Origin: Arenicola marina | Taxonomy: Eukaryota; Annelida; Polychaeta; Arenicolidae | Assembly: GCA_964019135.1 (NCBI GenBank) | Contig: OZ025255.1 | Coordinates: 186,001-250,000, forward strand | Direction: 5' to 3' | DNA length: 64,000 nucleotides | Part shown: one piece after another, positions 17,406 through 48,900 of the stretch | Layout of the letters: each line of letters opens with the position of its first letter | How positions within the stretch are numbered: position 1 is the stretch's first letter | Translations under genes and position numbers: made by a program | Notes under the pieces: generated by a model | Told to the model about the DNA's origin: nothing | The model's database searches: none | The model's input: the letters and a program-made list of their open reading frames with translations, nothing else

Positions 17406-17552
17406 TGTGTCACATGCACAAAGAATTATCTCGAAGATGCCATACAGTGTGACAAATGCGACCAATGGCTGCATATGTCCTGCCTCTAGTTAGGACCAGA
17501 TCAAGCAAAGGAATGGCAAAAAGATGACCTCATATTTCTCTGCCCTAACTGC
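17406..17552 (+). pseudogene. PHD-finger remnant of the transposon
   Basis: Zinc-ligand order Cys-x2-Cys, Cys-x2-Cys-x4-His-x2-Cys, Cys-x2-Cys can be read in one frame: PCVTCTKN, then AIQCDKCDQWLHMSC, then IFLCPNC. This is the classic Cys4-His-Cys3 PHD pattern, which in transposons is probably a DNA- or chromatin-binding module. A TAG lies two codons after the sixth ligand. It is not a host gene: the OTU and transposase blocks follow directly in the same orientation. Confidence 0.72.
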
Positions 17553-17769
17553 ATCCATCCAGACATATTTTCATACCAAGAATGCCTGAAGCGTCTGGAC
17601 TCGGCGCAAGCCGAAGGACGGCTCCTCAGCACCGCAGAAAGTGAGAAGCTGCTGTTAAGAACCTATGGCCTGACATACGTTGCTGTGTCATCACTAGACA
17701 ACAGTTCCAGTCAGATTGATGCAAGTCTGACTATTATTCTTCAGAACATACATCCCATCATACTTCAGT

Positions 17770-18350
17770 GGTTTAGACTGCTTCGGGTTAAAGGAGATGG
17801 AAATTGTTTCTACAGACCTGCATCACTTGCTCTGTTTGGAACTGAGGAACGGTACCAAGAACTATGATCCAGAGTTGCTGTTGAAATAATAACCAACAAA
17901 GATCGTTATGGCGTCACCGGGAGCGGCTTCCCCACAAAGTTATTGGACACAAGTTTCGTGCTGGCCAACTACGAGACTTACTGCTCCTCGACACCTCGTA
18001 ATGGAAGTCTGAGTGACATTCTTCACTTCTATGCACTTAGTACAGTGATTGGCCGGCCCATCAGAAGTTATTTCCCACCTGTGAGCATTGACATTCCTGT
18101 GCACAGTCGCATTGTCTACGGAACAGGCATTAGAAAGTGTGGTCAAAGTTCGAGTGCGGCATGACATGGCAAGTTCCTGACCATTTTACCGTGTTGTGGC
18201 CCATCGACTCCCAGGCGGACACCTGTATCGAGCTCTACTCCAACACAGGAACTCGCTCTAGCACCCTGTCACAACCAACTTATATAGACGCTGTCGGTAA
18301 AAAGTTTCAGCACGTTCAGCGACATCTCTCTTCTGGAGGCGCACAATAAA
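17770..18350 (+). pseudogene. OTU-like cysteine protease remnant of the transposon
   Basis: LLRVKGDGNCFYRPASLALF matches the start of OTU domains, where the Asp and Cys of GDGNCFYR are catalytic. About 380 bases later PDHFTVLWPI gives a plausible catalytic-His region. The two parts are in different frames and a stop follows the first, so the domain is broken. OTU domains occur in several Mutator-like families, which is why I group it with the flanking PHD and transposase blocks. Confidence 0.7.
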
Positions 18351-24933: not shown

Positions 24934-27900
24934 GTGACATTACAAACCTGCTGCATCATTTGTACTGTATCTATTTAGTCTAGTGTGTTAGTAATGTACC
25001 AGTAATCATATTTTCATTTTGTATCTTACAGTGAATATATTAGATTATCTAGAAGTAAAAATGTATTGGTTCTAATAAATATAGATTTTATTATTTATTT
25101 TATTATTATATATTGCTATTTATGTATATCCTCACTATATATAGAGTGATATTTCAGTTGTTTGGGTTTAGTTTACTACATATGCTAATGTTCTGTTTTG
25201 CTCGGGATTGCAGAATTACATGCTGTTTTTTTATATTTCAGAAGTCTGTTCAAAACATTGACGATGATCAGCCATGTAATCCGTTCACTGAGATACAAAT
25301 CTTCTCCCATCATTCTAATATTGTCCGCCACCTTCTAAGGATAGACGCAACAAGGTTTGTCAGTCTCTAATCTGATGACTTCTCACATGGAAAGACATAT
25401 ACGCGTTAAAACCATGAACGACCTCCAGGTTCATACTGTGGGTAAGAGGCCCATCCAACCGTTGGTCTGGGCTAAGGGTAAGAGGCCCATCCAACCGTTG
25501 GTCTGGGCTGGTGGTAAGAGGCCCATCCAACCGTTGGTCTGGGCTGAGGGTAAGAGGCCCATCCAACCTTGGGTCTGGGCTGGTGGTAAGAGGCCCATCC
25601 AACCGTTGGTCTGGGCTGAGGGTAAGAGGCCCATCCAACCGTTGGTCTGGGCTGGTGGTAAGAGGCCCATCCAACCGTTGGTCTGGGCTGAGGGTAAGAG
25701 GTCCATCCAACCTTGGGTGTAGGCTGAGGGTAAGAGGCCCATCCAACCGTTGGTCTGGGCTAAGGGTAAGAGGCCCATCCAACCTTGGGTCTGGGCTGAG
25801 GGTAAGGGGCCCATCCAACCTTGGCTCTGGGCTGTGGGTTAGAGGCCCATCTAACTTGGGTCTAGGCTGAGGGTAAGGGGCCCATCCAACCGTTGGTCTG
25901 GGCTGAGGGTAAGGGGCCCATCCAACCTTGGGTCTGGACTGTGGGTAAGAGGCCCATTCAATCGTGGGTCTGGGCTGAGGGTAAGAGGCCCATCCAACCG
26001 TTGGTCTGGGCTGTGGGTAAGAGGCCCATCCAACCTTGGGTCTGCGTCTGAGGCCCATCCACTGTACATTTGATTGTTGGAAGACGTTGTAGCTGGCAAA
26101 AGTTATCAATAACATTACATTCATAGACATTGTAACTGTTACTGTGAATATTGTTATTGGTAATAATACTTGTATGTACTTTGCCATTGTAGTCGTCCTT
26201 AGAGCCGTTGTATGTGCTGTATCTCTGCATGACGTGCCTGTGTTACAGGTGCGTGTCCGCGGGCGATGACGGCATTCTGGTCCTGTGGGATGTGGAGGTG
26301 GGTTACCTCTGTGCTGGAGAGGAGAACACTGCCAGCGAGGCTTTAGTCCGGGATTGGTGTCGTTAACTTGAGATCGATAAAAGCAGTGACAACAATCTCC
26401 CACGGAACGAGTGGGAAAAACTATTATTTAATTGTCTAATTGCAATTACGATTTAGAATACTCTTTCTCTCTCGCAAAGATATACTAATCGGACGCGGAT
26501 CTCGTGGGGGGAGGGGGGGGGGGGTCAGGGGGTCTGGACCGCCCCCCTTCCTTTTTTGTAGTAAACCCCTTTTGTAAACCCCTGTTTTAAGCCAATGTCC
26601 CCCCCCCCCACCCCCCCCCGCCCCGTCGTAAAATTGTGAAAGCGGGCCTCCTCAAAATGCTGGATCCGCGCAATGCTTGTAGCAAGACGCGTTCTGGTCG
26701 AACCGGTTGGTAGTAACAAGGACAATGCTATTACACACTGTCCTTGGTAGTAGTGCAATCCGTGACGCTGTTATATCCCCCACCGCCACCATGATGCTAC
26801 TCGCTAACGACCGACCAACATAGCTACATCGTGTAGAGATCTCATTACTGATTCCTTAACTCATATAAGCAAACGTTCATTTATTGTAAGGTTATCCCCA
26901 AGCACATTAAACTTGCAATAGTTTTACTTGTGCAAGATAACTGCATTGGAAAGAGAACAGACTATTCCTGGATTGCCCAAAGGCATGTGATACTGTGGAC
27001 CATGATTTATTGTTTCAAAAAAACAAGAGACCTGACCTGTCATGAGGGGACTTGCATTAAGTTGGTGACTAAAAGTTGTAGTTTATAATAATGCATCTTC
27101 CAGGAGATCCCGAATCGTGGCCCTCGCGGTTCCGTGCTAGGACCGCCTCTATGTCGGTTCCGTGTTAGGACCGCCTCTATGTCGGTTCCGTGCTAGGACC
27201 GCCTCTATGTCGGTTCCGTGCTAGGACCGCCTCTATGTCGGTTCCGTGCTAGGACCGCCTCTATGTCGGTTCCGTGCTAGGATCGCCTCTATGTCGGTTC
27301 CGTGCTAGGACCGCCTCTATGTCGGTTCCGTGCTAGGACCGCCTCTATGTCGGTTCCGTGCTAGGACCGCCTCTATGTCGGTTCCGTGCTAGGACCGCCT
27401 CTATGTCGGTTCCGTGCTAGGACCGCCTCTATGTCGGTTCCGTGCTAGGACCGCCTCTATGTCGGTTCCGTGCTAGGACCGCCTCTATGTCGGTTCCGTG
27501 CTAGGACCGCCTCTATGTCGGTTCTACATCAGTGAATATTATCAAATACTTGTTTGGAATGTCTTCACATCTGGTAATATCTTCACATCTCGTAAGGACA
27601 TAAATAGACGTACGCGGGATCACCGTGGCATTGCCTGGCTGTTTATCTGACTCCATTCTCATTGGACGAAATTGTGTTCTTACAGAACGGGCGTCGGTTG
27701 TTTGTGCTGGAGGGCCACAGTCGTCCAGTCACGTGCTGCTGTGTCATCTCCCCGCCAGATGGCGACACCATCGTGGTCAGCGCCGCCTCCGACAAACACA
27801 TATGTGTATCCTTCAATGTTCACGTCATGCTTCTGAATTATATGGGCATATTACAATAGTAAAGCTGCTCATACAGACTGCATTCATTGTGAATTTCCAA

Positions 27901-30900
27901 AAATGTTGGAGAAATGTGTAATTATCTGACTGTAAATGTGTTTTATTCACAAAATATATTGTATAAATAACGCATTATGTGCTGGTGAACTGTACCCAAT
28001 TTTGTAATACTCCACTTTACAGATGTAGGAACTGATAACTAATGTATCACAAGGAATATCTGTTCTGTGATAACTAAGTGTTTAATTGTCCTCCATGACC
28101 ACACATGATATGTGAACATGCGCCATTGTCCCTCTCCGTGTGGTGTATGTTATAACGTGGGGTGTAACGCGATGGCCTTCCTCAACTGTTGGCCTCAGCT
28201 GTGGAATGTTGACACTGGCTCTCTGCTGCGTACGTTGACCGTGCACAACAGTATCGTCCGGGTACGTTAACCAGGATCACAACGTTTGTATCTGTTCTGT
28301 GCTGCTGCGCCCACCGCAGTAATTTTACGGTACATTTAGGACGGCACATTGTTACTTGCAGTGTTTGGCCACTCTGGAGGTCACGTTGTTACTTGCAGTG
28401 TTTGGCCACTCTGGAGGTCACATTGTTACTTGCAGTGTTTGGCCACTCTGGAGGTCACATTGTTACTTGCAGTGTTTGGCCACTCTGGAGGACGGCACAT
28501 TGTTACTTGCAATGTTTGGCCACTCTGGAGGTCACGTTGTTACTTGTAGTGTTTGGCCACTCTGGAGGACGGCGCATTGTTACTTGCAGTGTTTGGCCAC
28601 TCTGGAGTTCACGTTGTTACTTGCAGTGTTTGGCCACTCTGGAGGTCACATTGTTACTTGCAGTGTTTGGCCACTCTGGAGGACGCCACATTGTTACTTG
28701 CAAGGTTTGGCCACTCTGTAGGACGGCACATTGTTACTTGCAGTGTTTGGCCACTCTGGAGGACGGCACGTTGTTACTTGCAGTGTTTGGCCACTCTGGA
28801 GGTCACGTTGTTACTTGCAGTGGTTGGCCACTCTGGAGGACGGCACGTTGTTACTTGCAGTGTTTGGCCACTCTGGAGGTCACGTTGTTGCAGTGTTTGG
28901 CCACTCTGGAGGTCACGTTGTTACTTGCAGTGGTTGGCCACTCTTGAGGACGGCACGTTGTTACTTGCAGTGTTTGGCCACTCTGGAGGTCACATTGTTA
29001 CTTGCAATGTCTGGCCACTCTGGAGGTCACATTGTTACTTGCAGTGTTTGGCCACTCTGGAGGACGCCACATTGTTACTTGCAGTGTTTGGCCACTCTGG
29101 AGGACGCCACATTGTTACTTGCAGTGTTTGGCCACTCTGGAGGTCACGTTGTTACTTGCAGTGTTTGACCACTCTGGAGGACGGCGCATTGTTACTTGCA
29201 GTGTTTGGCCACTCTGGAGGTCACGTTGTTACTTGCAGTGTTTGGCCACTCTGGAGGTCACGTTATTACTTGCAGTGTTTGGCCACTCTGGAGGTCACGT
29301 TGTTACTTGCAGTGGTTGGCCACTCTGGAGGACGGCACGTTGTTACTTGCAGTGTTTGGCCACTCTGGAGGTCACGTTGTTGCAGTGTTTGGCCACTCTG
29401 GAGGTCACGTTGTTACTTGCAGTGGTTGGCCACTCTTGAGGACGGCACGTTGTTACTTGCAGTGTTTGGCCACTCTGGAGGTCACATTGTTACTTGCAAT
29501 GTCTGGCCACTCTGGAGGTCACATTGTTACTTGCAGTCCTTGGCCACTCTGGAGGACGCAACATTGTTACTTGCAGTGTTTGGCCACTCTGTAGGACGGC
29601 ACATTGTTACTTGCAGTGTTTGGCCACTCTGGAGGTCACGTTGTTACTTGCAGTGTTTGGCCACTCTGGAGGTCGCGTTGTTACTTGCAGTGGTTGGCCA
29701 CTCTGGGGGACGGCACGTTGTTACTTGCAGTGTTTGGCCACTCTGGAGGACGCAACATTGTTACTTGCAGTGTTTGGCCACTCTGGAGGTCACGTTGTTA
29801 CTTGCAGTGGTTGCCACTCTGGAGGACGGCACGTTGTTTCTTACAGTGTTTGGCCACTCTGGAGGATGCCACATTGTTACATTCAGTGTTTGGCCACTCT
29901 GGAGGACGCCACATTGTTACTTGCAGTGTTTGGCCACTCTGGAGGACGGCACGTTGTTACTTGCAGTATTTGGCCACTCTGGAGGACGGCACGTTGTTAC
30001 TTGCAGTGTTTGGCCACTCTGGAGGTCACGTTGTTGCAGTGTTTGGCCACTCTGGAGGTCACGTTGTTACTTGCAGTGGTTGGCCACTCTTGAGGACGGC
30101 ACGTTGTTACTTGCAGTGTTTGGCCACTCTGGAGGTCACATTGTTACTTGCAATGTCTGGCCACTCTGGAGGTCACATTGTTACTTGCAGTGTTTGGCCA
30201 CTCTGGAGGACGCAACATTGTTACTTGCAGTGTTTGGCCACTCTGTAGGACGGCACATTGTTACTTGCAGTGTTTGGCCACTCTGGAGGTCACGTTGTTA
30301 CTTGCAGTGTTTGGCCACTCTGGAGGTCGCGTTGTTACTTGCAGTGGTTGGCCACTCTGGGGGACGGCACGTTGTTACTTGCAGTGTTTGGCCACTCTGG
30401 AGGTCACGTTGTTACTTGCAGTGTTTGGCCACTCTGGAGGACGCAACATTGTTACTTGCAGTGTTTGGCCACTCTGGAGGTCACGTTGTTACTTGCAGTG
30501 GTTGCCACTCTGGAGGACGGCACGTTGTTTCTTACAGTGTTTGGCCACTCTGGAGGATGCCACATTGTTACATTCAGTGTTTGGCCACTCTGGAGGACGC
30601 CACATTGTTACTTGCAGTGTTTGGCCACTCTGGAGGACGGCACGTTGTTACTTGCAGTGTTTGGCCACTCTGGAAGACGCCACGTTGTTACTTGAAGTGT
30701 TTGGCCACTCTGGAGGACGGCACGTTGTTACTTGCAGTATTTGGCCACTCTGGAGGACGGCACATTATTACTTGCAGTGTTTGGCCACTCTGGAGGTCAC
30801 GTTGTTACTTGCAGTGTTTGGCCACTCTGGAGGGCACGTTGTTGCTTGCAGTGTTTGGCCACTCTGGGGGACGCCACGTTGTTACTTGCAGTGTTTGGCC

Positions 30901-33900
30901 ACTCTAGAGGACGCCATGTTGTTACTTGCAGTGTTTGGCCACTCTGGAGGACGGCACGTTGTTACTTGCAGTGTTTGGCCACTCTGGAGGTCACGTTGTT
31001 ACTTGCAGTGTTTGGACACTCTGAAGGACGCCACGTTGTTACTTGCAGTGCTTGGCCGCTCTGGAGGACGGCACGTTGTTACTTGCAGTGTTTGGCCACT
31101 CTGGAGGTCACGTTTTTACTTGCAGTGTTTGGACACTCTGAAGGACGCCACGTTGTTACTTGCAGTGCTTGGCCGCTCTGGAGGACGGCACGTTGTTACT
31201 TGCAGTGTTTGGCCACTCTGGAGGACGGCACGTTGTTACTTGCAGTGTTTGGCCACTCTGAAGGACGCCACGTTGTTACTTGCAGTGCTTGGCCGCTCTG
31301 GAGGACGGCACGTTGTTACTTGCAGTGTTTGGCCATTCTGGAAGACGCCACGTTGTTATTTGCAGTGTTTGGCCACTCTGGGGGACGCCACGTTGTTACT
31401 TGCAGTGTTTGGCCACTCTGGAGGACGGCACGTTGTTACTTGCAGTGTTTGGCCACTCTGGAGGACGGCACGTTGTTACTTGCTGTGTTTGGCCACTCTG
31501 GAGGACGGCACGTTGTTACATGCAGTGTTTGGCCACTCTGAAGGACGGCACGTTGTTACTTGCAGTGTTTGGCCACTCTGGAGGACGGCACGTTTTGCTC
31601 AGCGGGAGAGAAGTTGTGTCGATGGAGTGCAGAAGGACACTTGCTACAGGAGTTTAATCGACCCGAAGAGGAAGGTAGGTCGCGGGTAGCACTGACTTCA
31701 CTCTCCGTCTAGCTCGCCAGTTTGTCTGCTCCCGGCTGATTGGTATACCCGTACGAAAAAGAGATACGACTTTCAACTGTATAACTGGAGTTAGTATTTG
31801 GTTGAAAGCTAGTTAGAATTCAGTTATTGTGTTTGCCTGCTCCCTGCTGATTGATATTGTGTTTGCCATGCAGATATCACACAGATGGTCGTCATCAGGG
31901 AAAATAAGATCATCGGAGTCGTAGATAAACAACTAGGTAGGCAGCTTCTGCTACGGTTCTTGTCTCCTAGAAAGGAACATTTGTAATTAGACTTACGATG
32001 CATGTAAGATATGAACGTTGGCTAATGTGGCTCTGTTCAAACTGACAGTCGCAGTTTGACGATGGCGGGTGGATCTGGAGTCACTCTATTACCCTGCATG
32101 CTATTGATATGCCTCGAGTGGTCGCTATGGGCTTCTTGTCCCAACATAACAGTAATATTGCTATTCTTGTGCTTCACATATTGACCTCAAGACCAGGTAC
32201 TCGAAAGTCGATATCACAAGGCAGTGATACAATACCTCACTGTACAAGGACTAGAAGGGTATGGTGATGGCGTAAAAACCTCTGGCCTATTACGCCATAA
32301 AAGTACGGACATTTGTACCTATGTTGAGATTAGAGATCGTAACACATTTTTTGTATTGAACGTTAGCAAGGTATCCGATACTGTTGAGCATTAATCAGGT
32401 GGAAAGAGCCGTTTGACCGGCTGTAACTCGTTGCTGTGTTGTACATGTTGTGGCTGGCTGGCGTGCCTACAGCGGTGTACACTCTGGAGGCCAGGGAAGA
32501 CGGGAACACCGAGCTACAGTTCTGCAGGAAGCTACCTTCCCACAGAGAGGCCATCAAATGTCTGATTAAAATAAGCGGTCTGTATCTATTAACACTTCAA
32601 CAGTTAGAAATACCGTTATCGTCTAATTATGTCGTTTTTTGTCGTAATCATTTGCTCAGTTATTTATGATTGCGAACATCCGTTATAATTATAAATTTTC
32701 CGCTATGAAAACACGTGTGGAATTTATTTTAGCTTTACTCAAATTCATTAATGCCGTTCACACTCCTTTTGGCCGATATCTTCCTGAATATTGGAGTAAT
32801 CACCGAGATATTTTCTAACTGGCTGCACTGAACTAAGACCCAACAGATTTAGACTTACTTTCCTCTCTTTGCTGATTGTTTCTTTCTGTGTTATCCAAAG
32901 AAATATTCCATATGATGAAGCTCCATTGACCACAAACGTCAGCCATTTAACAAACTAAAACAAGGACCGTGCGCGAAGCGTTGCCTGGCAATGGTTGCCA
33001 TTGGATGCAATTGAGACAATGGATACAGTACACGTCATAACAAGCGCGTGCTCCTCCTTTTAGCTTATTAAGAGGCAGACGTTTGTGGTCAATGGAGCTT
33101 CATCATATGGAATATTTCTTTGGATAACACAGAAAGAAATAATCAGCAAAGAGAGGAAAGTAAGTCTAAATCTGTTGGGGTTTAGTTCAGTGCAGCCAGT
33201 CAGAAAATATCTCGGTCATTGCTCCAATATTAACGAAGATATCGGCCAAAAGGAGTGTGAACGGCATTAATGAATTTGAGTATAGAACCGTAACAAACAT
33301 TGAACAACTTCTACCAATGCTACAGTATCCCCATGCGACGATGGTTTGTTTGTCTTCTGAACGTGATGTGTGCTACTGGTAGACGTGTGCTTCGCGAGCG
33401 GATCGCTAGATGGCGCCGTCATCCTGTGGTCGGCCCACGTGTTGGCTCCCAGTCGCTACTTCAATAACCAGGGGGACTACGCGGGGGAGGACAAGACCTA
33501 CCCCTTCAGCGTGCAGCACCTGCTCTCCGTGCAGGAGGTGAGTGGCAGTAGGCCAAGCCAGGCACTGAGCCTAGCCAGGCACTGAGCCAAGCCAGGCACT
33601 GAGCCTAGCCAGGCACTGAGCCAAGCCAGGCACTGAGCCTAGCCAGGCACTGAGCCAAGCCAGGCACTGAGCCTAGCCTGTCACTGAGGCTAGCCAGGCA
33701 CTGAGTCTAGCCAGGCACTCAGCCTAGCCAGGCACTCAGCCTAGCCAGACACTGAGCCTAGCCAGGCACTGAGTCTAGCCAGGCACTGAGCCTAGCCAGG
33801 CACTGAGCCTAGCCCGTCACTGTGCCTAGCCAGGCACTGAGCCTAGCCAGGCACTGAGCCAACCCAGGCACTGAGCCTAGCCAGGCACTGAGCCAAGCCA

Positions 33901-36900
33901 GGCACTGTGCTTAGCCAGACACTGAGCCTAGCCCGGCACTGAACCTAGCCAGACACTGAGCCTAGCCAGGCACTGAGCCTAGCCCCGCACTGAGCCTAGC
34001 CAGGCACTGAGCCTAGCCAGGCACTGAGCCTAGCCAGGCACTGAGCCTAGCCAGGCACTGAGCCTAGCCAGGCACTGAGCCTAGCCAGGCACTGAGCCTA
34101 GCCAGGCACTAAGCCTAGCCAGGCACTGAGCCAAGCCCGGCACTGAGCCTAGCCAGGCACTGAGCCTAGCCAGGCACTGAGCCTAGCCCCGCACTGAGCC
34201 TAGCCAGGCACTGAGCCTAGCCAGGCACTGAGCCTAGCCAGGCACTGAGCTTAGGCTGTCACTGAGCCTAGCCAGGCACTGAGCCTAGCCAGGCACTGAG
34301 CCTAGCCAGGCACTGAGCCTAGCCAGGCACTGAGCCTAGCCAGGCACTGAGCCTAGCCAGGCACTGAGCCTAGCCAGGCACTGGGCTGTTGAGCATTCAA
34401 CGGCTTGTGATACTCTTACTGTTTGACATTAGACATAAACCAGGCTTAATTATTTCAATATTAGCATCTGCCAGGCTTAATTATTTCGATATTGGTATAT
34501 ATTAGGCCTAATTATTTTAATATTAGCATATGCCAGGCTTAATTTATTCAATATTAAAATAAACCAGGCTTAATTATTTCAATATTAGCGTACAACATGC
34601 TTAATTATCACAATACTTACATACAAGCTTCATTATTATTTAAGATGTTTGTGCCCCACTGCCATGAGTTAGCGGCCTGTCCAGAATGACTGTATGTGTG
34701 TTGTAGAGATACCTGGTGGCCACGGTGGGCAGTGGATACTGTGTGTTTGACATGATCTCCGGCAAGATGATCGCAGAAAAAACTCGCGCACACTATTCTA
34801 AAATAATAAACATGGAGTTTGTTTATGAGGGGTAAGAATTCTTCAGTTTTTAGTCCCAGAAAAGAAGTGTGTATATTGTCTTGAATACCGAAGAATGAGG
34901 GCATATCTTCCTTACATAGTAAGCACTTGTGGTTTAACCTGATGGCCACCAATCGGGCGCTTCACATGTACTGCTACTGGGGTTAACATAAAGCTAACCT
35001 GTTCTAAAGCAGCATGTAGGTGTCATGTGAGCAGCAGAATACTAACTAGTAGTACTAGGCAGTGGGTGGTACAGCCACACAGACCGTACACACGGTGTAT
35101 ATCATGGCGGTACAGCCACACAGACCGTACACACGGTGTATGTCATGGCGGTACAGCCACACAGGCCGTACACACGGTGTATGTCATGGCGGTACAGCCA
35201 CACAGACCGTACACACGGTGTATGTCATGGCGGTACAGCCACACAGACCGTACACACGGTGTATGTCATGGCGGTACAGCCACACAGACCGTACACACGG
35301 TGTATGTCATGGCGGTACAGCCACACAGGCCGTACACACGGTGTATGTCATGGCGGTACAGCCACACAGACCGTACACACGGTGTATGTCATGGCGGTAC
35401 AGCCACACAGACCGTACACACGGTGTATGTCATGGCGGTACAGCCACACAGACCGTACACACGGTGTATGTCATGGCGGTACAGCCACACAGACCGTACA
35501 CACGGTGTATGTCATGGCGGTACAGCCACACAAACCGTACACACGGTGTATGTCATGGCGGTACAGCCACACAGACCGTACACACGGTGTATGTCATGGC
35601 GGTACAGCCACACCGGCCGTACACACGGTGTATGTCATGGCGGTACAGCCACACAGACCGTACACACGGTGTATGTCATGGCGGTACAGCCACACAGACC
35701 GTACACACGGTGTATGTCATGGCGGTACAGCCACACAGGCCGTACACACGGTGTATGTCATGGCGGTACAGCCACACAGACCGTACACACGGTGTATGTC
35801 ATGGCGGTACAGCCACACAAACCGTACACACGGTGTATGTCATGGCGGTACAGCCACACAGACCGTACACACAGTATATGTCATGGCGGTACAGCCACAC
35901 AGACCGTACACACTGTGTATGTCATGGCGGTACAGCCACACAGACCGTACACACGGTGTATGTCATGGCGGTACAGCCACACAGACCGTACACACGGTGT
36001 ATGTCATGGCGGTACAGCCACACAGGCCGTACACACGGTGTATGTCATGGCGGTACAGCCACACAGACCGTACACACGGTGTATGTCATGGCGGTACAGC
36101 CACACAGACCGTACACATGGTGTATGTCATGGCGGTACAGCCACACAGACCGTACACACGGTGTATGTCATGGCGGTACAGCCACACAGACCGTACACAC
36201 GGTGTATGTCATGGCGGTACAGCCACACACACCGTACACACGGTGTATGTCATGGCGGTACAGCCACACAGACCGTACACACGGTGTATGTCATGGCGGT
36301 ACAGCCACACAGACCGTACACACGGTGTATGTCATGGCGGTACAGCCACACAGGCCGTACACACGGTGTATGTCATGGCGGTACAGCCACACAGACCGTA
36401 CACACGGTGTATGTCATGGCGGTACAGCCACACAGACCGTACACACGGTGTATGTCATGGCGGTACAGCCACACAGGCCGTACACACGGTGTATGTCATG
36501 GCGGTACAGCCACACAGACCGTACACACGGTGTATGTCATGGCGGTACAGCCACACAGACCGTACACACGGTGTATGTCATGGCGGTACAGCCACACAGA
36601 CCGTACACACGGTGTATGTCATGGCGGTACAGCCACACAGACCGTACACACGGTGTATGTCATGGCGGTACAGCCACACAGACCGTACACACTGTGTATG
36701 TCATGGCGGTACAGCCACACAGACCGTACACACGGTGTATGTCATGGCGGTACAGCCACACAGACCGTACACACAGTATATGTCATGGCGGTACAGCCAC
36801 ACAGACCGTACACACAGTATATGTCATGGCGGTACAGCCACACAGACCTTACACACTGTGTATGTCATGGCGGTACAGCCACACAGACCGTACACACGGT

Positions 36901-39900
36901 GTATGTCATGGCGGTACAGCCACACAGACCGTACACACGGTGTATGTCATGGCGGTACAGCCACACAGACCGTACACACGGTGTATGTCATGGCGGTACA
37001 GCCACACAGACCGTACACACAGTATATGTCATGGCGGTACAGCCACACAGACCGTACACACAGTATATGTCATGGCGGTACAGCCACACAGACCTTACAC
37101 ACTGTGTATGTCATGGCGGTACAGCCACACAGACCGTACACACGGTGTATGTCATGGCGGTACAGCCACACAGACCGTACACATGGTGTATGTAGACACA
37201 TTGTAAAGCCCGTGGTTGACTGTTAATGACTTCTCTCGGTCGTTGACAGTTATTTGCTGGCCACGTGTTCTGAGGACGGTGCCATCAGACTTTGGGGCTG
37301 CTACAAGTCGTTCTGCCAGGACAGACGGAGGGAAGGCAATGGCGACAGCGACGGGACGCTGGAAAGGTTCCTCGGGCTGAGGTACAGTTACACGTCACAG
37401 GGTATAGACTGTCATATGTTTACTGCATGGTTACTGATGTTTCCTGTTGGGTTACTGATGTTTCTTGTTTGGTTACTGATGTTTCCTGTTTGGTTACTGA
37501 TTTTTCCTGTTAGGTTACTGATGTTTCTAGTATGATTACTGATGTTGCTAGTATGGTTACTGATGTTTCTTGTTGGGTTACTGATGTTTCCAGTATGGTT
37601 ACTGATGTTTCTAGTATGTGTACTGATGTTTCTAGTATGGTTACTGATGTTGCTAGTATGGTTACTGATGTTTCTTGTTGGGTTATTGATGTTTCCAGTA
37701 TGGTTACTGATGTTTCTAGTATGTGTACTGATGTTTCTAGTATGGTTAATGATGTTTCCTGTTTGGTTACTGATGTTTCCTGTTTGGTTACTGATGTTTC
37801 CTGTTTGGTTACTGATGTTTCCTGTTTGGTTACTGATGTTTCCTGTTTGATTACCGATGGTTGCTGTATGGTTACTGATGTTTGATGTTTGGTTACTAAT
37901 GTTTGCTGTATGGTTTCTGATGTTTGATGTTTGGTTACTGATGTTTCGTGTTGGGTTACTGATGTTTCTAATATGGTTACTGTTGTTTTCATGTTTGGTG
38001 GCTGATGTTTCCAATATGGTTACTGATGTTTCCTGTTTGGTTACTGATGTTTCCTGTTTGGTTACCGATGGTTCCTGTATGATTACTGATGTTTGATGTT
38101 TGGTTACTGATGTTTCTAGTATGGTTACTGATGTTTTCTGTTTGGCTACTGATGTTTTCTGTTTGGTTACTGATGTTTCCTGTTTGGTTACTGATGTTTC
38201 TAGTATGGTTACTGATGTTCCAGTATGGTTACTGTTGTTTCCAATATGGTTACTGATGTTTCCAGTATGGTTACTGTTGTTTCCGGTATGGTTACTGATG
38301 TTTCCTGTTTGGCTACTGATGTTTCTAGTATGGTTACTGATGTTTCCACTGTGGTTACTGTTGTTTCCAGTATGGTTACTGATGTTTCCGGTATGGTTAC
38401 TGATGTTTCCAGTATGGTTGCTGATGTTTCCTGTATTGTTACTGATGTTTCCAGTATGGTTACTGATGTTTCCTGTATTGTTACTGATGTTTCCAGTATG
38501 GTTACTGATGTTTTCTGTTTAGCTACTATTGGTATATTTAGAGAAGTGTAATCGTTCGTCATTGTGCATGTTGTGTTGTGAGATATTAATTCTCCGCCTT
38601 TGTTCCTCACTCAGCGTGGAAGATCTTCGCCTACTGCGTGACAAGGATGAGCGCGTGGAGCCCCACCTGCTGGGAGAGTGTCTCGGCCACAGTGGCGCCG
38701 TGCAGCGGATTCTCGACCTGGGCGCCGAGGGTTTCCTCACGTGTGGCGTCGACAAACTTGTCATCGCCTGGAAGGTGGGTATTCGTTGGTTGGCTGGTTG
38801 TATATTCAGGACGCTTTAACCACTTTTGGTCATATCGCGTCAATAGGAGAAGGAAGGGAGAGTAGAGCCATGTCCCTTGGATAACTCCCTACTCTTTGCG
38901 AAGAAAGACATGGGATCTTTATCCTGCGACCACACAGACATGGCCACAGCGAGGCTCGAACCATCGATCCACGTGCCTTTAGGCTATCGGGTGGCCAGAG
39001 TGCTGGCATGCAATGCTCTGGCCACCCGATGGCGCTAGTGCGTAGTGTCTGTCTCCAGGTCTGATGGACTGTATGTCAAATAGAGCCCATGGCGCTAGTG
39101 CGTGGTGTCTGTCTCCAGGTCTGATGGACTGTATGTCAAGTAGAGCCCATGGCGCTGGTGCGTGGTGTCTGTCTCCAGGTCTGATGGACTGTATGTCAAG
39201 TAGAGCCCATGGCGCTAGTGCGTGGTGTCTGTCTCCAGGTCTGATGGACTGTATGTCAAGTAGAGCCCATGGCGCTGGTGCGTGGTGTCTGTCTCCAGGT
39301 CTGATGGACTGTATGTCAAGTAGAGCCCATGGCGCTAGTGCGTGGTGTCTGTCTCCAGATCTGATGGACTGTATGTCAAGTAGAGCCCATGGCGCTAGTG
39401 CGTGGTGTCTGTCTCCAGGTCTGATGGACTGTATGTCAAGTAGAGCCCATGGCGCTAGTGCGTGGTGTCTGTCTCCAGGTCTGATGGACTGTATGTCAAG
39501 TAGAGCCCATGGCGCTGGTGCGTGGTGTCTGTCTCCAGGTATGATGGACTGTATGTCAAGTAGAGCCCATGGCGCTAGTGCGTGGTGTCTGTCTCCAGGT
39601 CTGATGGACTGTATGTCAAGTAGAGCCCATGGCGCTGGTGCGTGGTGTCTGTCTCCAGGTCTGATGGACTGTATGTCAAGTAGAGCCCATGGCTAGTGCG
39701 TGGTGTCTGTCTCCAGATCTGATGGACTGTATGTCAAGTAGAGCCCATGGCGCTGGTGCGTGGTGTCTGTCTCCAGGTCTGATGGACTGTATGTCAAGTA
39801 GAGCCCATGGCGCTGGTGCGTGGTGTCTGTCTCCAGATCTGATGGACTGTATGTCAAGTAGAGCCCATGGCGCTGGTGCGTGGTGTCTGTCTCCAGGTCT

Positions 39901-42900
39901 GATGGACTGTATGTCAAGTAGAGCCCATGGCGCTGGTGCGTGGTGTCTGTCTCCAGGTCTGATGGACTGTATGTCAAGTAGAGCCCATGGCGCTGGTGCG
40001 TGGTGTCTGTCTCCAGGTCTGATGGACTGTATGTCAAGTAGAGCCCATGGCGCTGGTGCGTGGTGTCTGTCTTCAGGTCTGATGGACTGTATGTCAAGTA
40101 GAGCCCATGGCTAGTGCGTGGTGTCTGTCTCCAGGTTTGTCAAGTAGAGCCCATGGCTAGTGCGTGGTGTCTGTCTCCAGGTCTGATGGACTGTATGTCA
40201 AGTAGAGCCCATGGCGCTAGTGCGTGGTGTCTGTCTCCAGGTCTGATGGACTGTATGTCAAGTAGAGCCCATGGCGCTGCCGCGTGGTGTCTGTCTCCAG
40301 GTCTGATGGACTGTATGTCAAGTAGAGCCCATGGCTAGTGCGTGGTGTCTGTCTCCAGGTCTGATGGACTGTATGTCAAGTAGAGCCCATGGCGCTGGTG
40401 CGTGGTGTCTGTCTCCAGGTCTGATGGACTGTATGTCAAGTAGAGCCCATGGCGCTGGTGCGTGGTGTCTGTCTCCAGGTCTGATGGACTGTATGTCAAG
40501 TAGAGCCCATGGCGCTGGTGCGTGGTGTCTGTCTCCAGGTCTGATGGACTGTATGTCAAGTAGAGCCCATGGCGCTAGTGCGTGGTGTCTGTCTTCAGGT
40601 CTGATGGACTGTATGTCAAATAGAGCCCATGGCGCTGGTGCGTGGTGTCTGTCTCCAGGTCTGATGGACTGTATGTCAAGTAGAGCCCATGGCGCTGGTG
40701 CGTGGTGTCTGTCTCCAGGTCTGATGGACTGTATGTCAAGTAGAGCCCATGGCGCTGGTGCGTGGTGTCTGTCTCCAGGTCTGATGGACTGTATGTCAAG
40801 TAGAGCCCATGGCTAGTGCGTGGTGTCTGTCTCCAGGTCTGATGGACTGTATGTCAAGTAGAGCCCATGGCGCTGGTGCGTGGTGTCTGTCTCCAGGTCT
40901 GATGGAATGTATGTCAAGTAGAGCCCATGGCGCTAGTGCGTGGTGTCTGTCTCCAGGTCTGATGGACTGTATGTCAAGTAGAGCCCATGGCGCTAGTGCG
41001 TGGTGTCTGTCTCCAGGTCTGATGGACTGTATGTCAAGTAGAGCCCATGGCGCTGGTGCGTGGTGTCTGTCTCCAGGTCTGATGGACTGTATGTCAAGTA
41101 GAGCCCATGGCTAGTGCGTGGTGTCTGTCTCCAGATCTGATGGACTGTATGTCAAGTAGAGCCCATGGCGCTGGTGCGTGGTGTCTGTCTCCAGGTCTGA
41201 TGGACTGTATGTCAAGTAGAGCCCATGGCGCTAGTGCGTGGTGTCTGTCTCCAGGTCTGACGGACTGTATGTCAAGTAGAGCCCATGGCGCTAGTGCGTG
41301 GTGTCTGTCTCCAGGTCTGATGGACTGTATGTCAAGTAGAGCCCATGGCGCTAGTGCGTGGTGTCTGTCTCCAGGTCTGATGGACTGTATGTCAAGTAGA
41401 GCCCATGGCGCTAGTGCGTGGTGTCTGTCTCCAGATCTGATGGACTGTATGTCAAGTAGAGCCCATGGCGCTAGTGCGTGGTGTCTGTCTCCAGGTCTGA
41501 CGGACTGTATGTCAAGTAGAGCCCATGGCGCTAGTGCGTGGTGTCTGTCTCCAGGTCTGATGGACTGTATGTCAAGTAGAGCCCATGGCGCTAGTACGTG
41601 GTGTCTGTCTCCAGATCTGATGGACTGTATGTCAAGTAGAGCCCATGGCGCTAGTGCGTGGTGTCTGTCTCCAGATCTGATGGACTGTATGTCAAGTAGA
41701 GCCCATGGCGCTGGTGCGTGGTGTCTGTCTCCAGGTCTGATGGACTGTATGTCAAGTAGAGCCCATGGCGCTAGTGCGTGGTGTCTGTCTCCAGATCTGA
41801 TGGACTGTATGTCAAGTAGAGCCCATGGCGCTGGTGCGTGGTGTCTGTCTCCAGGTCTGATGGACTGTATGTCAAGTAGAGCCCATGGCGCTAGTGCGTG
41901 GTGTCTGTCTCCAGGTCTAATGGACTGTATGTCAAGTAGAGCCCATGGCGCTAGTGCGTGGTGTCTGTCTCCAGGTCTGATGGACTGTATGTCAAGTAGA
42001 GCCCATGGCGCTAGTGCGTGGTGTCTGTCTCCAGGTCTGATGGACTGTATGTCAAGTAGAGCCCATGGCGCTAGTGCGTGGTGTCTGTCTCCAGGTCTGA
42101 TGGACTGTATGTCAAGTAGAGCCCATGGCGCTGGTGCGTGGTGTCTGTCTCCAGGTCTGATGGACTGTATGTCAAGTAGAGCCCATGGCGCTAGTGCGTG
42201 GTGTCTGTCTCCAGGTCTGATGGACTGTATGTCAAGTAGAGCCCATGGCGCTGGTGCGTGGTGTCTGTCTCCAGGTCTGATGGACTGTATGTCAAGTAGA
42301 GCCCATGGCGCTAGTGCGTGGTGTCTGTCTCCAGATCTGATGGACTGTATGTCAAGTAGAGCCCATGGCGCTAGTGCGTGGTGTCTGTCTCCAGGTCTGA
42401 TGGACTGTATGTCAAGTAGAGCCCATGGCGCTAGTGCGTGGTGTCTGTCTCCAGGTCTGATGGACTGTATGTCAAATAGAGCCCATGGCGCTAGTGCGTG
42501 GTGTCTGTCTCCAGGTCTGATGGACTGTATGTCAAGTAGAGCCCATGGCGCTGGTGCGTGGTGTCTGTCTCCAGGTCTGATGGACTGTATGTCAAGTAGA
42601 GCCCATGGCGCTAGTGCGTGGTGTCTGTCTCCAGGTCTGATGGACTGTATGTCAAGTAGAGCCCATGGCGCTGGTGCGTGGTGTCTGTCTCCAGGTCTGA
42701 TGGACTGTATGTCAAGTAGAGCCCATGGCGCTAGTGCGTGGTGTCTGTCTCCAGATCTGATGGACTGTATGTCAAGTAGAGCCCATGGCGCTAGTGCGTG
42801 GTGTCTGTCTCCAGGTCTGATGGACTGTATGTCAAGTAGAGCCCATGGCGCTAGTGCGTGGTGTCTGTCTCCAGGTCTGATGGACTGTATGTCAAGTAGA

Positions 42901-45900
42901 GCCCATGGCGCTGGTGCGTGGTGTCTGTCTCCAGGTATGATGGACTGTATGTCAAGTAGAGCCCATGGCGCTAGTGCGTGGTGTCTGTCTCCAGGTCTGA
43001 TGGACTGTATGTCAAGTAGAGCCCATGGCGCTGGTGCGTGGTGTCTGTCTCCAGGTCTGATGGACTGTATGTCAAGTAGAGCCCATGGCTAGTGCGTGGT
43101 GTCTGTCTCCAGATCTGATGGACTGTATGTCAAGTAGAGCCCATGGCGCTGGTGCGTGGTGTCTGTCTCCAGGTCTGATGGACTGTATGTCAAGTAGAGC
43201 CCATGGCGCTGGTGCGTGGTGTCTGTCTCCAGATCTGATGGACTGTATGTCAAGTAGAGCCCATGGCGCTGGTGCGTGGTGTCTGTCTCCAGGTCTGATG
43301 GACTGTATGTCAAGTAGAGCCCATGGCGCTGGTGCGTGGTGTCTGTCTCCAGGTCTGATGGACTGTATGTCAAGTAGAGCCCATGGCGCTGGTGCGTGGT
43401 GTCTGTCTCCAGGTCTGATGGACTGTATGTCAAGTAGAGCCCATGGCGCTGGTGCGTGGTGTCTGTCTTCAGGTCTGATGGACTGTATGTCAAGTAGAGC
43501 CCATGGCTAGTGCGTGGTGTCTGTCTCCAGGTTTGTCAAGTAGAGCCCATGGCTAGTGCGTGGTGTCTGTCTCCAGGTCTGATGGACTGTATGTCAAGTA
43601 GAGCCCATGGCGCTAGTGCGTGGTGTCTGTCTCCAGGTCTGATGGACTGTATGTCAAGTAGAGCCCATGGCGCTGCCGCGTGGTGTCTGTCTCCAGGTCT
43701 GATGGACTGTATGTCAAGTAGAGCCCATGGCTAGTGCGTGGTGTCTGTCTCCAGGTCTGATGGACTGTATGTCAAGTAGAGCCCATGGCGCTGGTGCGTG
43801 GTGTCTGTCTCCAGGTCTGATGGACTGTATGTCAAGTAGAGCCCATGGCGCTGGTGCGTGGTGTCTGTCTCCAGGTCTGATGGACTGTATGTCAAGTAGA
43901 GCCCATGGCGCTGGTGCGTGGTGTCTGTCTCCAGGTCTGATGGACTGTATGTCAAGTAGAGCCCATGGCGCTAGTGCGTGGTGTCTGTCTTCAGGTCTGA
44001 TGGACTGTATGTCAAATAGAGCCCATGGCGCTGGTGCGTGGTGTCTGTCTCCAGGTCTGATGGACTGTATGTCAAGTAGAGCCCATGGCGCTGGTGCGTG
44101 GTGTCTGTCTCCAGGTCTGATGGACTGTATGTCAAGTAGAGCCCATGGCGCTGGTGCGTGGTGTCTGTCTCCAGGTCTGATGGACTGTATGTCAAGTAGA
44201 GCCCATGGCTAGTGCGTGGTGTCTGTCTCCAGGTCTGATGGACTGTATGTCAAGTAGAGCCCATGGCGCTGGTGCGTGGTGTCTGTCTCCAGGTCTGATG
44301 GAATGTATGTCAAGTAGAGCCCATGGCGCTAGTGCGTGGTGTCTGTCTCCAGGTCTGATGGACTGTATGTCAAGTAGAGCCCATGGCGCTAGTGCGTGGT
44401 GTCTGTCTCCAGGTCTGATGGACTGTATGTCAAGTAGAGCCCATGGCGCTGGTGCGTGGTGTCTGTCTCCAGGTCTGATGGACTGTATGTCAAGTAGAGC
44501 CCATGGCTAGTGCGTGGTGTCTGTCTCCAGATCTGATGGACTGTATGTCAAGTAGAGCCCATGGCGCTGGTGCGTGGTGTCTGTCTCCAGGTCTGATGGA
44601 CTGTATGTCAAGTAGAGCCCATGGCGCTAGTGCGTGGTGTCTGTCTCCAGGTCTGACGGACTGTATGTCAAGTAGAGCCCATGGCGCTAGTGCGTGGTGT
44701 CTGTCTCCAGGTCTGATGGACTGTATGTCAAGTAGAGCCCATGGCGCTAGTGCGTGGTGTCTGTCTCCAGGTCTGATGGACTGTATGTCAAGTAGAGCCC
44801 ATGGCGCTAGTGCGTGGTGTCTGTCTCCAGATCTGATGGACTGTATGTCAAGTAGAGCCCATGGCGCTAGTGCGTGGTGTCTGTCTCCAGGTCTGACGGA
44901 CTGTATGTCAAGTAGAGCCCATGGCGCTAGTGCGTGGTGTCTGTCTCCAGGTCTGATGGACTGTATGTCAAGTAGAGCCCATGGCGCTAGTACGTGGTGT
45001 CTGTCTCCAGATCTGATGGACTGTATGTCAAGTAGAGCCCATGGCGCTAGTGCGTGGTGTCTGTCTCCAGATCTGATGGACTGTATGTCAAGTAGAGCCC
45101 ATGGCGCTGGTGCGTGGTGTCTGTCTCCAGGTCTGATGGACTGTATGTCAAGTAGAGCCCATGGCGCTAGTGCGTGGTGTCTGTCTCCAGATCTGATGGA
45201 CTGTATGTCAAGTAGAGCCCATGGCGCTGGTGCGTGATGTCTGTCTCCAGGTCTGATGGACTGTATGTCAAGTAGAGCCCATGGCGCTAGTGCGTGGTGT
45301 CTGTCTCCAGGTCTAATGGACTGTATGTCAAGTAGAGCCCATGGCGCTAGTGCGTGGTGTCTGTCTCCAGGTCTGATGGACTGTATGTCAAGTAGAGCCC
45401 ATGGCGCTAGTGCGTGGTGTCTGTCTCCAGGTCTGATGGACTGTATGTCAAGTAGAGCCCATGGCGCTAGTGCGTGGTGTCTGTCTCCAGATCTGATGGA
45501 CTGTATGTCAAGTAGAGCCCATGGCGCTGGTGCGTGGTGTCTGTCTCCAGGTCTGATGGACTGTATGTCAAGTAGAGCCCATGGCGCTAGTGCGTGGTGT
45601 CTGTCTCCAGGTCTAATGGACTGTATGTCAAGTAGAGCCCATGGCGCTAGTGCGTGGTGTCTGTCTCCAGGTCTGATGGACTGTATGTCAAGTAGAGCCC
45701 ATGGCGCTAGTGCGTGGTGTCTGTCTCCAGGTCTAATGGACTGTATGTCAAGTAGAGCCCATGGCGCTAGTGCGTGGTGTCTGTCTCCAGATCTGATGGA
45801 CTGTATGTCAAATAGAGCCCATGGCGCTGGTGCGTGGTGTCTGTCTCCAGGTCTGATGGACTGTATGTCAAGTAGAGCCCATGGCGCTGGTGCGTGGTGT

Positions 45901-48900
45901 CTGTCTCCAGATCTGATGGACTGTATGTCAAGTAGAGCCCATGGCGCTGGTGCGTGGTGTCTGTCTCCAGGTCTGATGGACTGTATGTCAAGTAGAGCCC
46001 ATGGCGCTGGTGCGTGGTGTCTGTCTCCAGGTCTGATGGACTGTATGTCAAATAGAGCCCATGGCTAGTGCGTGGTGTCTGTCTCCAGGTCTGATGGACT
46101 GTATGTCAAGTAGAGCCCATGGCTAGTGCGTGGTGTCTGTCTCCAGATCTGATGGACTGTATGTCAAGTAGAGCCCATGGCGCTAGTGCGTGGTGTCTGT
46201 CTCCAGGTCTGATGGACTGTATGTCAAGTAGAGCCCATGGCGCTGGTGCGTGGTGTCTGTCTCCAGGTCTGATGGACTGTATGTCAAGTAGAGCCCATGG
46301 CGCTAGTGCGTGGTGTCTGTCTCCAGGTCTGATGGACTGTATGTCAAGTAGAGCCCATGGCGCTAGTGCGTGGTGTCTGTCTCCAGGTCTGATGGACTGT
46401 ATGTCAAGTAGAGCCCATGGCGCTGGTGCGTGGTGTCTGTCTCCAGGTCTGATGGAATGTATGTCAAGTAGAGCCCATGGCGCTAGTGCGTGGTGTCTGT
46501 CTCCAGGTCTGATGGACTGTATGTCAAGTAGAGCCCATGGCTAGTGCGTGGTGTCTGTCTCCAGGTCTGATGGACTGTATGTCAAGTAGAGCCCATGGCG
46601 CTAGTGCGTGGTGTCTGTCTCCAGGTCTGATTGACTGTATGTCAAGTAGAGTCTTTGGCAGTAGGGCGTACGACATCAACGCTAAGAAGACATAGTTCTC
46701 ACCAGCGGCAACAAATTATTTGATGTCGAATATGGTTACTGATGTTTCCTGTTTGGTTACTGATCTTTCCTCTTTGGTTACTGATGTTTCTAGTATTGCT
46801 CACACATTTAACGAAACAAATTGTCACATGTTATTAATAAAACATTTCTGGACGACAAGAAGGCAGGCGTTTTGGCTTTCAGGAAGCCAGACGCTGTGTA
46901 TAAAAGTGACCTGTTTGGCTTTCAGGAAGCCAGGCGCTGTGTATTAACGTGACGTGTTTAGCTTTCAGGAAGCCAGGCGCTGTGTATAAACGTGACGTGT
47001 TTGGCTTTCATGACGCCAGGCGCTGCGTATAAACGTGACGTGTTTGGCTTTCATGACGCCAGGCGCTGTGTATAAACGTGACGTGTTTGGCTTTCATGAC
47101 GCCAGGCGCTGTGTATAAACGTGACGTGTTTGGCTTTCATGACGCCAGGCGCTGCGTATTAACGTGACGTGTTTGGCTTTCAGGAAGCCAGGCGCTGTGT
47201 ATTAACGTGACGTGTTTGGCTTTCATGACGCCAGGCGCTGTGTATAAACGTGACGTGTTTGGCTTTCATGACGCCAGGCGCTGTGTATAAACGTGACGTG
47301 TTTGGCTTTCATGACGCCAGGCGCTGTGTATTAACGTGACGTGTTTGGCTTTCATGACGCCAGGCGCTGTGTATTAACGTGACGTGTTTGGCTTTCAGGA
47401 AGCCAGGCACTGTGTATTAACGTGACGTGTTTGTCTTTCAGGAAGCCAGGCGCTGTGTATTAACGTGACGTGTTTGTCTTTCAGGAAGCCAGGCGCTGTG
47501 TATTAACGTGACGTGTTTGGCTTTCAGGAAGCCAGGCGCTGTGTATTAACGTGACGTGTTAGGCTTTCTGGAAGCCAGGCGCTGTGTATTAACGTGACGT
47601 GTTAGGCTTTCAGGAAGCCAGGCGCTGTGTATTAACGTGACGTGTTAGGCTTTCTGGAAGCCAGGCGCTGTGTATTAACGTGACGTGTTAGGCTTTCAGG
47701 AAGCCAGGCGCTGTGTATTAACGTGACGTGTTTGGCTTTCAGGACGCCAGGCGCTGTGTATTAACGTGACGTGTTTGGCTTTCAGGAAGCCAGGCGCTGT
47801 GTATTAACGTGACGTGTTAGGCTTTCAGGATGCCAGGCGCTGTGTATACACGTGACGTGTTTGGCTTTCATGACGCCAGGCGCTGTGTATAAACGTGACG
47901 TGTTTGGCTTTCATGACGCCAGGCGCTGTGTATTAACGTGACGTGTTTGGCTTTCATGACGCCAGGCGCTGTGTATAAACGTGACGTGTTTGGCTTTCAT
48001 GACGCCAGGCGCTGTGTATTAACGTGACGTGTTTGGCTTTCAGGACGCCAGGCGCTGTGTATAAACGTGCCTTTTTCGGCTTTCATGACGCCAGGCGCTG
48101 TGTATAAACGTGACGTGTTTGGCTTTCATGACGCCAGGAGCTGTGTATAAACGTGACGTGTTTGGCTTTCAGGAAGCCAGGCGCTGTGTATTAACGTGAC
48201 GTGTATGGCTTTCATGACGCCAGGCGCTGTGTATAAACGTGACGTGTTTGGCTTTCATGACGCCAGGGGCTGTGTATAAACGTGACGTGTATGGCTTTCA
48301 TGACGCCAGGCGCTGTGTATAAACGTGACGTGTTTGGCTTTCATGACGCCAGGGGCTGTGTATAAACGTGACGTGTTTGGCTTTCATGACGCCAGGCGCT
48401 GTGTATAAACGTGACGTGTTTGGCTTTCATGACGCCAGATGCTGTGTATAAACGTGACGTGTTTGGCTTTCATGACGCCAGGCGCTGTGTATAAACGTGA
48501 CGTGTTTGGCTTTCATGACGCCAGGGGCTGTGTATAAACGTGACGTGTTTGGCTTTCATGACGCCAGGCGCTGTGTATAAACGTGACGTGTTTGGCTTTC
48601 ATGACGCCAGGCGCTGTGTATAAACGTGACGTGTTTGGCTTTCATGACGCATGACGCTGTGTATAAACGTGACGTGTTTGGCTTTCATGACGCCAGGCGC
48701 TGTGTATAAACGCGACGTGTTTGGCTTCCAGGACGGCGGGCGCTGTGTATAAACGTGACGTGTTTGGCTTTCAGGAAGCCAGGCGCTCTGTATAAACGTG
48801 ACGTGTTTGGCTTTCATGACGCCAGGCGCTGTGTATAAACGTGACGTGTTTGGCTTTCATGACGCCAGGCGCTGTGTATAAACGTGACGTGTTTGGCTTT

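Follow-up and report, generated by a model that had tools for sequence, protein, structure and literature searches.

When an intron ends in dozens of nearly identical 3' splice sites, which of them is joined to the exon before it, and what would follow from the use of another? This question is raised by a 64,000-nucleotide (nt) stretch of the Arenicola marina genome (contig OZ025255.1, positions 186,001 to 250,000; hereafter the window, numbered from its first letter), in which a minisatellite in the WDR41 gene was initially annotated as the amplification of a 3' splice site together with coding sequence. The gene model and the segmentation of the array bear this out, since the unit consensus contains the end of the intron (TTGTTACTTGCAG) and 24-27 nt from the start of the exon. 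Eleven exons, a to k, were mapped from 25242, where the map starts, to 38774; each is preceded by AG and followed by GT, and when joined they give a single open frame of 398 residues, with many stops in the remaining two frames. Judged by this predicted product, the gene is WDR41, as previously named: the Pfam family PF25178 (Beta-prop_WDR41) is matched with 208.4 bits against a cut-off of 50, and residues 3-398 align in one stretch (2.1e-50) with the PDB chain 6lt0_A, which we take to be human WDR41. The protein comparison comprises this family and this chain, and the orthologue comparison is the chain alone. Among the nine PDB chains listed, four other WD40 chains outrank 6lt0_A when E-values are taken over the whole sequence, the best stretch of each being about 90-100 residues long; an earlier PDB search with 97 residues returned generic WD40 chains, and WDR41 was absent among the best 60 of 552 matches.

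By the bounds of Tandem Repeats Finder (TRF), the first 29 nt of exon e lie inside the array, and exons d and e meet in phase 0, in agreement with the exact phase fit claimed earlier. In the alignment with 6lt0_A, SIVRCLATLED-GTFCSAGEKLC stands opposite STVKCLTVLQRLDVWLSGGNDLC, and CLATLED is paired with CLTVLQR, the very homology from which the initial annotation had concluded that the last unit is exonic. Deletion of CLATLE, as would result from the use of an acceptor at 31583, lowers the PF25178 score to 194.0 bits, a loss of 14, and deletion of 16 residues, as by an acceptor at 31613, lowers it to 183.2 bits, a loss of 25. Because 14 bits of the family match depend on CLATLE and the phases fit, the last array unit is, as far as sequence comparison tells, coding and part of exon e. 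The same loss indicates that the piece encoded by this unit is probably ancestral coding sequence, and suggests that the array arose from the junction and not the junction from the array. Six AGs within the exon (31583, 31610, 31613, 31649, 31652 and 31670) also leave the frame open, and one of them could be the working acceptor, past the last CAG/TGT, which would make the array wholly intronic; this is very improbable in view of the bits lost with 31583 and 31613, the two that were scored, of which the latter would drop one residue more than 31610 and fewer than 31649, 31652 and 31670. Moreover, 31583, 31610 and 31613 are preceded by GAG, GAG and AAG, respectively.

TRF reports a period of 40, 84.3 copies and 88% matches for the array, and dynamic programming split it into 84 units, most of them 40 nt (50) or 37 nt (29) long, with three of 33 and two of 36. 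The figure of about 85 units given at first is therefore essentially right; that each of them holds the acceptor is not, since TTGTTACTTGCAG is found in 63 exact copies (the 13-mer deviates in 21 of the 84 units) and the acceptor AG is retained in 78. The presence of dozens of near-equivalent acceptors was confirmed, as 48 of the 84 units share the sequence of the last acceptor, 31565, from -13 to +3. Over the 23 nt from -20 to +3 the number is 17, and from -20 to +16 it is 15, the last unit being counted in both cases; from -40 to +16, the last unit is matched by no other. The AG deviates in six units, a frequency inside the range of the other unit positions, so that the decoy AGs show no sign of upkeep or purging, and selection acting on them was rejected. 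Damage to the two nearest decoys was likewise rejected as meaningful: with 21 of 84 units deviating, two running are expected at about 6%, and the feature was picked post hoc. There are 39 distinct unit sequences, and runs of five to six unit types recur at spacings of 13, 17, 18 and 30 units, compared with at most four in shuffles (n=500), which reveals block duplication; in addition, the 12-nt GGACGGCAC(A/G)TT is found at the two ends of the array, 28339 and 31583. The copy number was read from a single haplotype and could have been inflated or collapsed during assembly, but the ordered pattern of so many distinct units, with its block duplications, makes such an artefact extremely improbable.

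The consequences of using each copy were determined by joining exon d in silico to the acceptor of every unit, 84 in all, and reading through exon k. A single one of the 78 AG-bearing units, 31565, remains open to the end, and the other 77 truncate the protein, the stops falling within the array for 63 of them, at 31655 in exon e for three and at 31922 in exon f for 11. Unit lengths are 1 mod 3 in 79 of 84 cases, hence nearly each extra unit shifts the frame; the 26 upstream AG units that are in frame with the exon are all stopped within the array, where the last frame-0 stop (TGA, 31539-31541, in the next-to-last unit) blocks any in-frame upstream acceptor. When all 173 AGs from 28281 to 31673 were tested, the frame was kept by seven, namely 31565 and the six exon-shortening ones mentioned above. 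Two earlier statements have to be abandoned in the light of these results. One is the absence of stops from the + frames: between 28263 and 31673 the three frames contain 7, 3 and 8, of which 6, 3 and 5 belong to the array itself, the remainder being located ahead of it or, in one case, in the exon. The other is that an acceptor three units upstream would add 38-40 residues in frame, as the extension from 31445 runs into the TGA just described. Selection for fail-safe truncation was considered and rejected, given that no open upstream acceptor is present in 348 of 2000 shuffles (17%) of the first 83 units, or in 16 of 83 rotations; random orders reproduce the property and selection is not required.

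Table 1. Features of the WDR41 locus, in window coordinates.
Feature	Position	Strand	Basis or remark
WDR41 exon a	25242..25354	+	gene model
WDR41 exon b	26249..26297	+	gene model
WDR41 exon c	27686..27805	+	gene model
WDR41 exon d, before the array (LWNVDTGSLLRTLTVHNSIVR)	28199..28261	+	phase-0 end; gene model and WDR41 alignment
Intron, 3304 nt, 98% minisatellite	28262..31565	+	donor GTACGT at 28262
Minisatellite	28338..31594	+	84 units, mostly 37 or 40 nt; TRF and segmentation
Decoy -3, acceptor intact	31445	+	+120 nt in frame, meets TGA 31539
Decoy -2, AG lost (TTGTTACTTGCTG)	31485	+	unit segmentation and acceptor table
Decoy -1, last intron base (TTGTTACATGCAG, altered pyrimidine tract)	31525	+	+40 nt, frameshift, stop 31655
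Branch-point-like CTGAA (-24 relative to 31565)	31538..31542	+	putative branch point
Putative working 3' splice site, the final one of the 63 exact TTGTTACTTGCAG copies	31553..31565	+	
WDR41 exon e, 109 nt, CLATLEDGTFCSAGEKLCRWSAEGHLLQEFNRPEEE	31566..31674	+	donor GTAGGT at 31675
WDR41 exon f	31874..31936	+	gene model
WDR41 exon g	32473..32577	+	gene model
WDR41 exon h	33383..33537	+	gene model
WDR41 exon i	34707..34831	+	gene model
WDR41 exon j	37250..37381	+	gene model
WDR41 exon k	38615..38774	+	gene model

Tandem units that lie across an exon-intron boundary have been described as "mirage" minisatellites in the lancelet, in the globin genes BflGb6 and BflGb9 and in Adh3 (PMC3087553); a second report adds lancelet PGBD5 and cites troponin C (PMC3902484), and in both mirages do not seem to disturb regular splicing (published work is quoted throughout from abstracts and selected passages). 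The WDR41 array looks like a large mirage, that is, a new and, against the reported counts, very large case of a published class of structure. Its units span the exon-intron boundary of a real gene and their length falls within the 10-160 bp of mirages; as for regular splicing, the reading frame, taken by itself, is kept by the acceptor of the terminal unit only. As in BflGb6, the array combines the 3' end of an intron with the 5' part of an exon, and many lancelet mirage units also hold AG/GT splice signals (PMC3087553). On the other hand, there are 84 units of 37-40 bp here, and six and three units of 150-160 bp in two BflGb6 haplotypes, the Adh3 units being of 10-72 bp as quoted in the same paper. 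The 60-bp and 108-bp repeats of PGBD5, whose copy number differs between two genome sequence versions, are longer and present in two to seven copies (PMC3902484). Competing 3' splice sites are also a property of NAGNAG and other tandem acceptors (PMC3250501), although NAGNAG involves two AGs three bases apart, whereas here a 40-nt unit that includes coding sequence is repeated dozens of times; the C. elegans minisatellite CeRep25B is also tied to splicing decisions, in that case through short regulatory motifs, a splice site in its units not being stated in the abstract (PMC4039745). In the literature on repeats and splice sites, screened by titles, opening lines of abstracts and passages and with most subscription journals outside the search, this structure was found only in the two lancelet papers. 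The 32-nt unit core gave no exact match in viral_contigs, the collections searched including no animal genomes.

These comparisons bear on a further possibility, that repeat number acts as a dial, a longer array diverting more RNA to unproductive acceptors and leaving less WDR41; length changes among individuals or cells would then set the amount of the protein. All other AG-bearing units, 77 in number, are indeed unproductive and would compete with the one productive acceptor, and BflGb6 haplotypes differ in copy number, somatic instability of Adh3 also being cited (PMC3087553). Nevertheless, we regard this as improbable, given that the truncating property arises so readily in shuffled arrays and that variation at the acceptor AGs is in the range found elsewhere in the unit, with no sign that decoys are maintained or removed. 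In any case, the locus provides a natural test of how the spliceosome chooses one of dozens of near-identical acceptors, and with 84 copies against two to seven in the lancelet reports (PMC3087553, PMC3902484), and wrong units truncating, it could give a sensitive readout of misuse; it is also relevant to the growth of introns and to their gain via junction duplication.

Seventeen identical acceptors imply that local context cannot decide which is used; the decision has to come from position, exon context and branch point. From the array, the gene, the coding last unit and the truncation table we infer an account that we hold with moderate confidence. Slippage or unequal exchange would have duplicated the WDR41 intron-exon junction, as a 40-nt piece with the intron end and the first 27 coding bases, and the duplicated junction would have expanded to 84 copies, every upstream copy being turned into intron. 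The last copy would work because it adjoins the exon's own donor, and would be further aided by the branch-point-like CTGAA; misuse of any other copy would truncate the protein, and such RNAs would be lost or useless. Exon definition from a donor, here 31675 of the 109-nt exon, favours the nearest acceptor. Branch-point-like motifs were counted with a simple rule drawn from human introns (yUnAy-like, with U and A fixed and at least one of the two pyrimidines, between -35 and -18). They are present in nine of the 78 AG units and, of the six AG-bearing units downstream of 31285, in 31565 only, the five nearest competitors being without; the nearest upstream unit with the motif is 31285 itself, 280 nt away. 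In the CTGAA, A31541 is shared with the TGA stop. It has been reported that the first AG past the branch point is used and that an AG lying less than about 12-15 nt from it can be skipped (PMC1431707). Past -12, the next AG upstream of 31565 is met at a distance of 22 nt, so the branch point of 31565 should be close.

Several observations weigh against this account. Local scoring cannot prefer 31565, whose surroundings recur unchanged in 17 units across 23 nt and in 15 from -20 to +16, itself counted. A branch-point-like motif more complete than that of the last acceptor, TTTAC at -34, precedes the first one, 28361, and GTTAC is found at position -44 in some other units and at position -47 in the last unit. 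The motif at the last unit is weak evidence, as it occurs in nine AG units and was noticed post hoc, and a simple yUnAy count taken from human introns may not be the rule of this organism; the rule is also loose, each of the ten other acceptors of the gene having at least one such motif between -60 and -15. RNA structure was rejected as the selector, because the fold of 31422-31674 was no more stable than those of its shuffled versions (z +1.43; at least as good a fold in 184 of 200 shuffles). It is possible, albeit rather unlikely, that the choice is noisy and filtered at the RNA level, many units being spliced and only the products of 31565 surviving the destruction of RNAs with early stops. 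The identical contexts, the truncation by all 77 other AG units and the fuller motif at the first acceptor are in line with this, but heavy transcript waste would be expected, and the Adh3 data and the reverse transcription-polymerase chain reaction results on the globins suggest that regular splicing is undisturbed, even if that assay could miss decayed RNA (PMC3087553).

The array share of the nine other mapped introns of the gene is 88-89% in three, 69% in one, 29% in one and 0% in four; by TRF bounds and the exon map, the array described above is the only one here that reaches into a mapped exon. A different array in a WDR41 intron (25436-26053) has units with the donor-like GGTAAGA, which occurs 13 times on the + strand of 25400-26060 and 14 times in the whole window, and could be an array of decoy 5' splice sites. 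The intron sequence at 32733-33285 is an inverted repeat with arms of 242 nt, 92% complementary, and a spacer of 69 nt, possibly a foldback element. Tandem repeats make up 84% of the window, among them a 24-mer repeated over 16 kb and further arrays 7.6, 10.4 and 5.7 kb long; no Rfam family reached its gathering score in the window. An open frame at 17490-17864, possibly transposon-derived, shows a weak otubain-like match to Peptidase_C65 (19.9 bits, below the cut-off of 24.3). Finally, downstream of the last mapped exon, a 60-nt array (39029-46651) contains 103 copies of CTCCAGGT, which resembles AG/GT splice signals.
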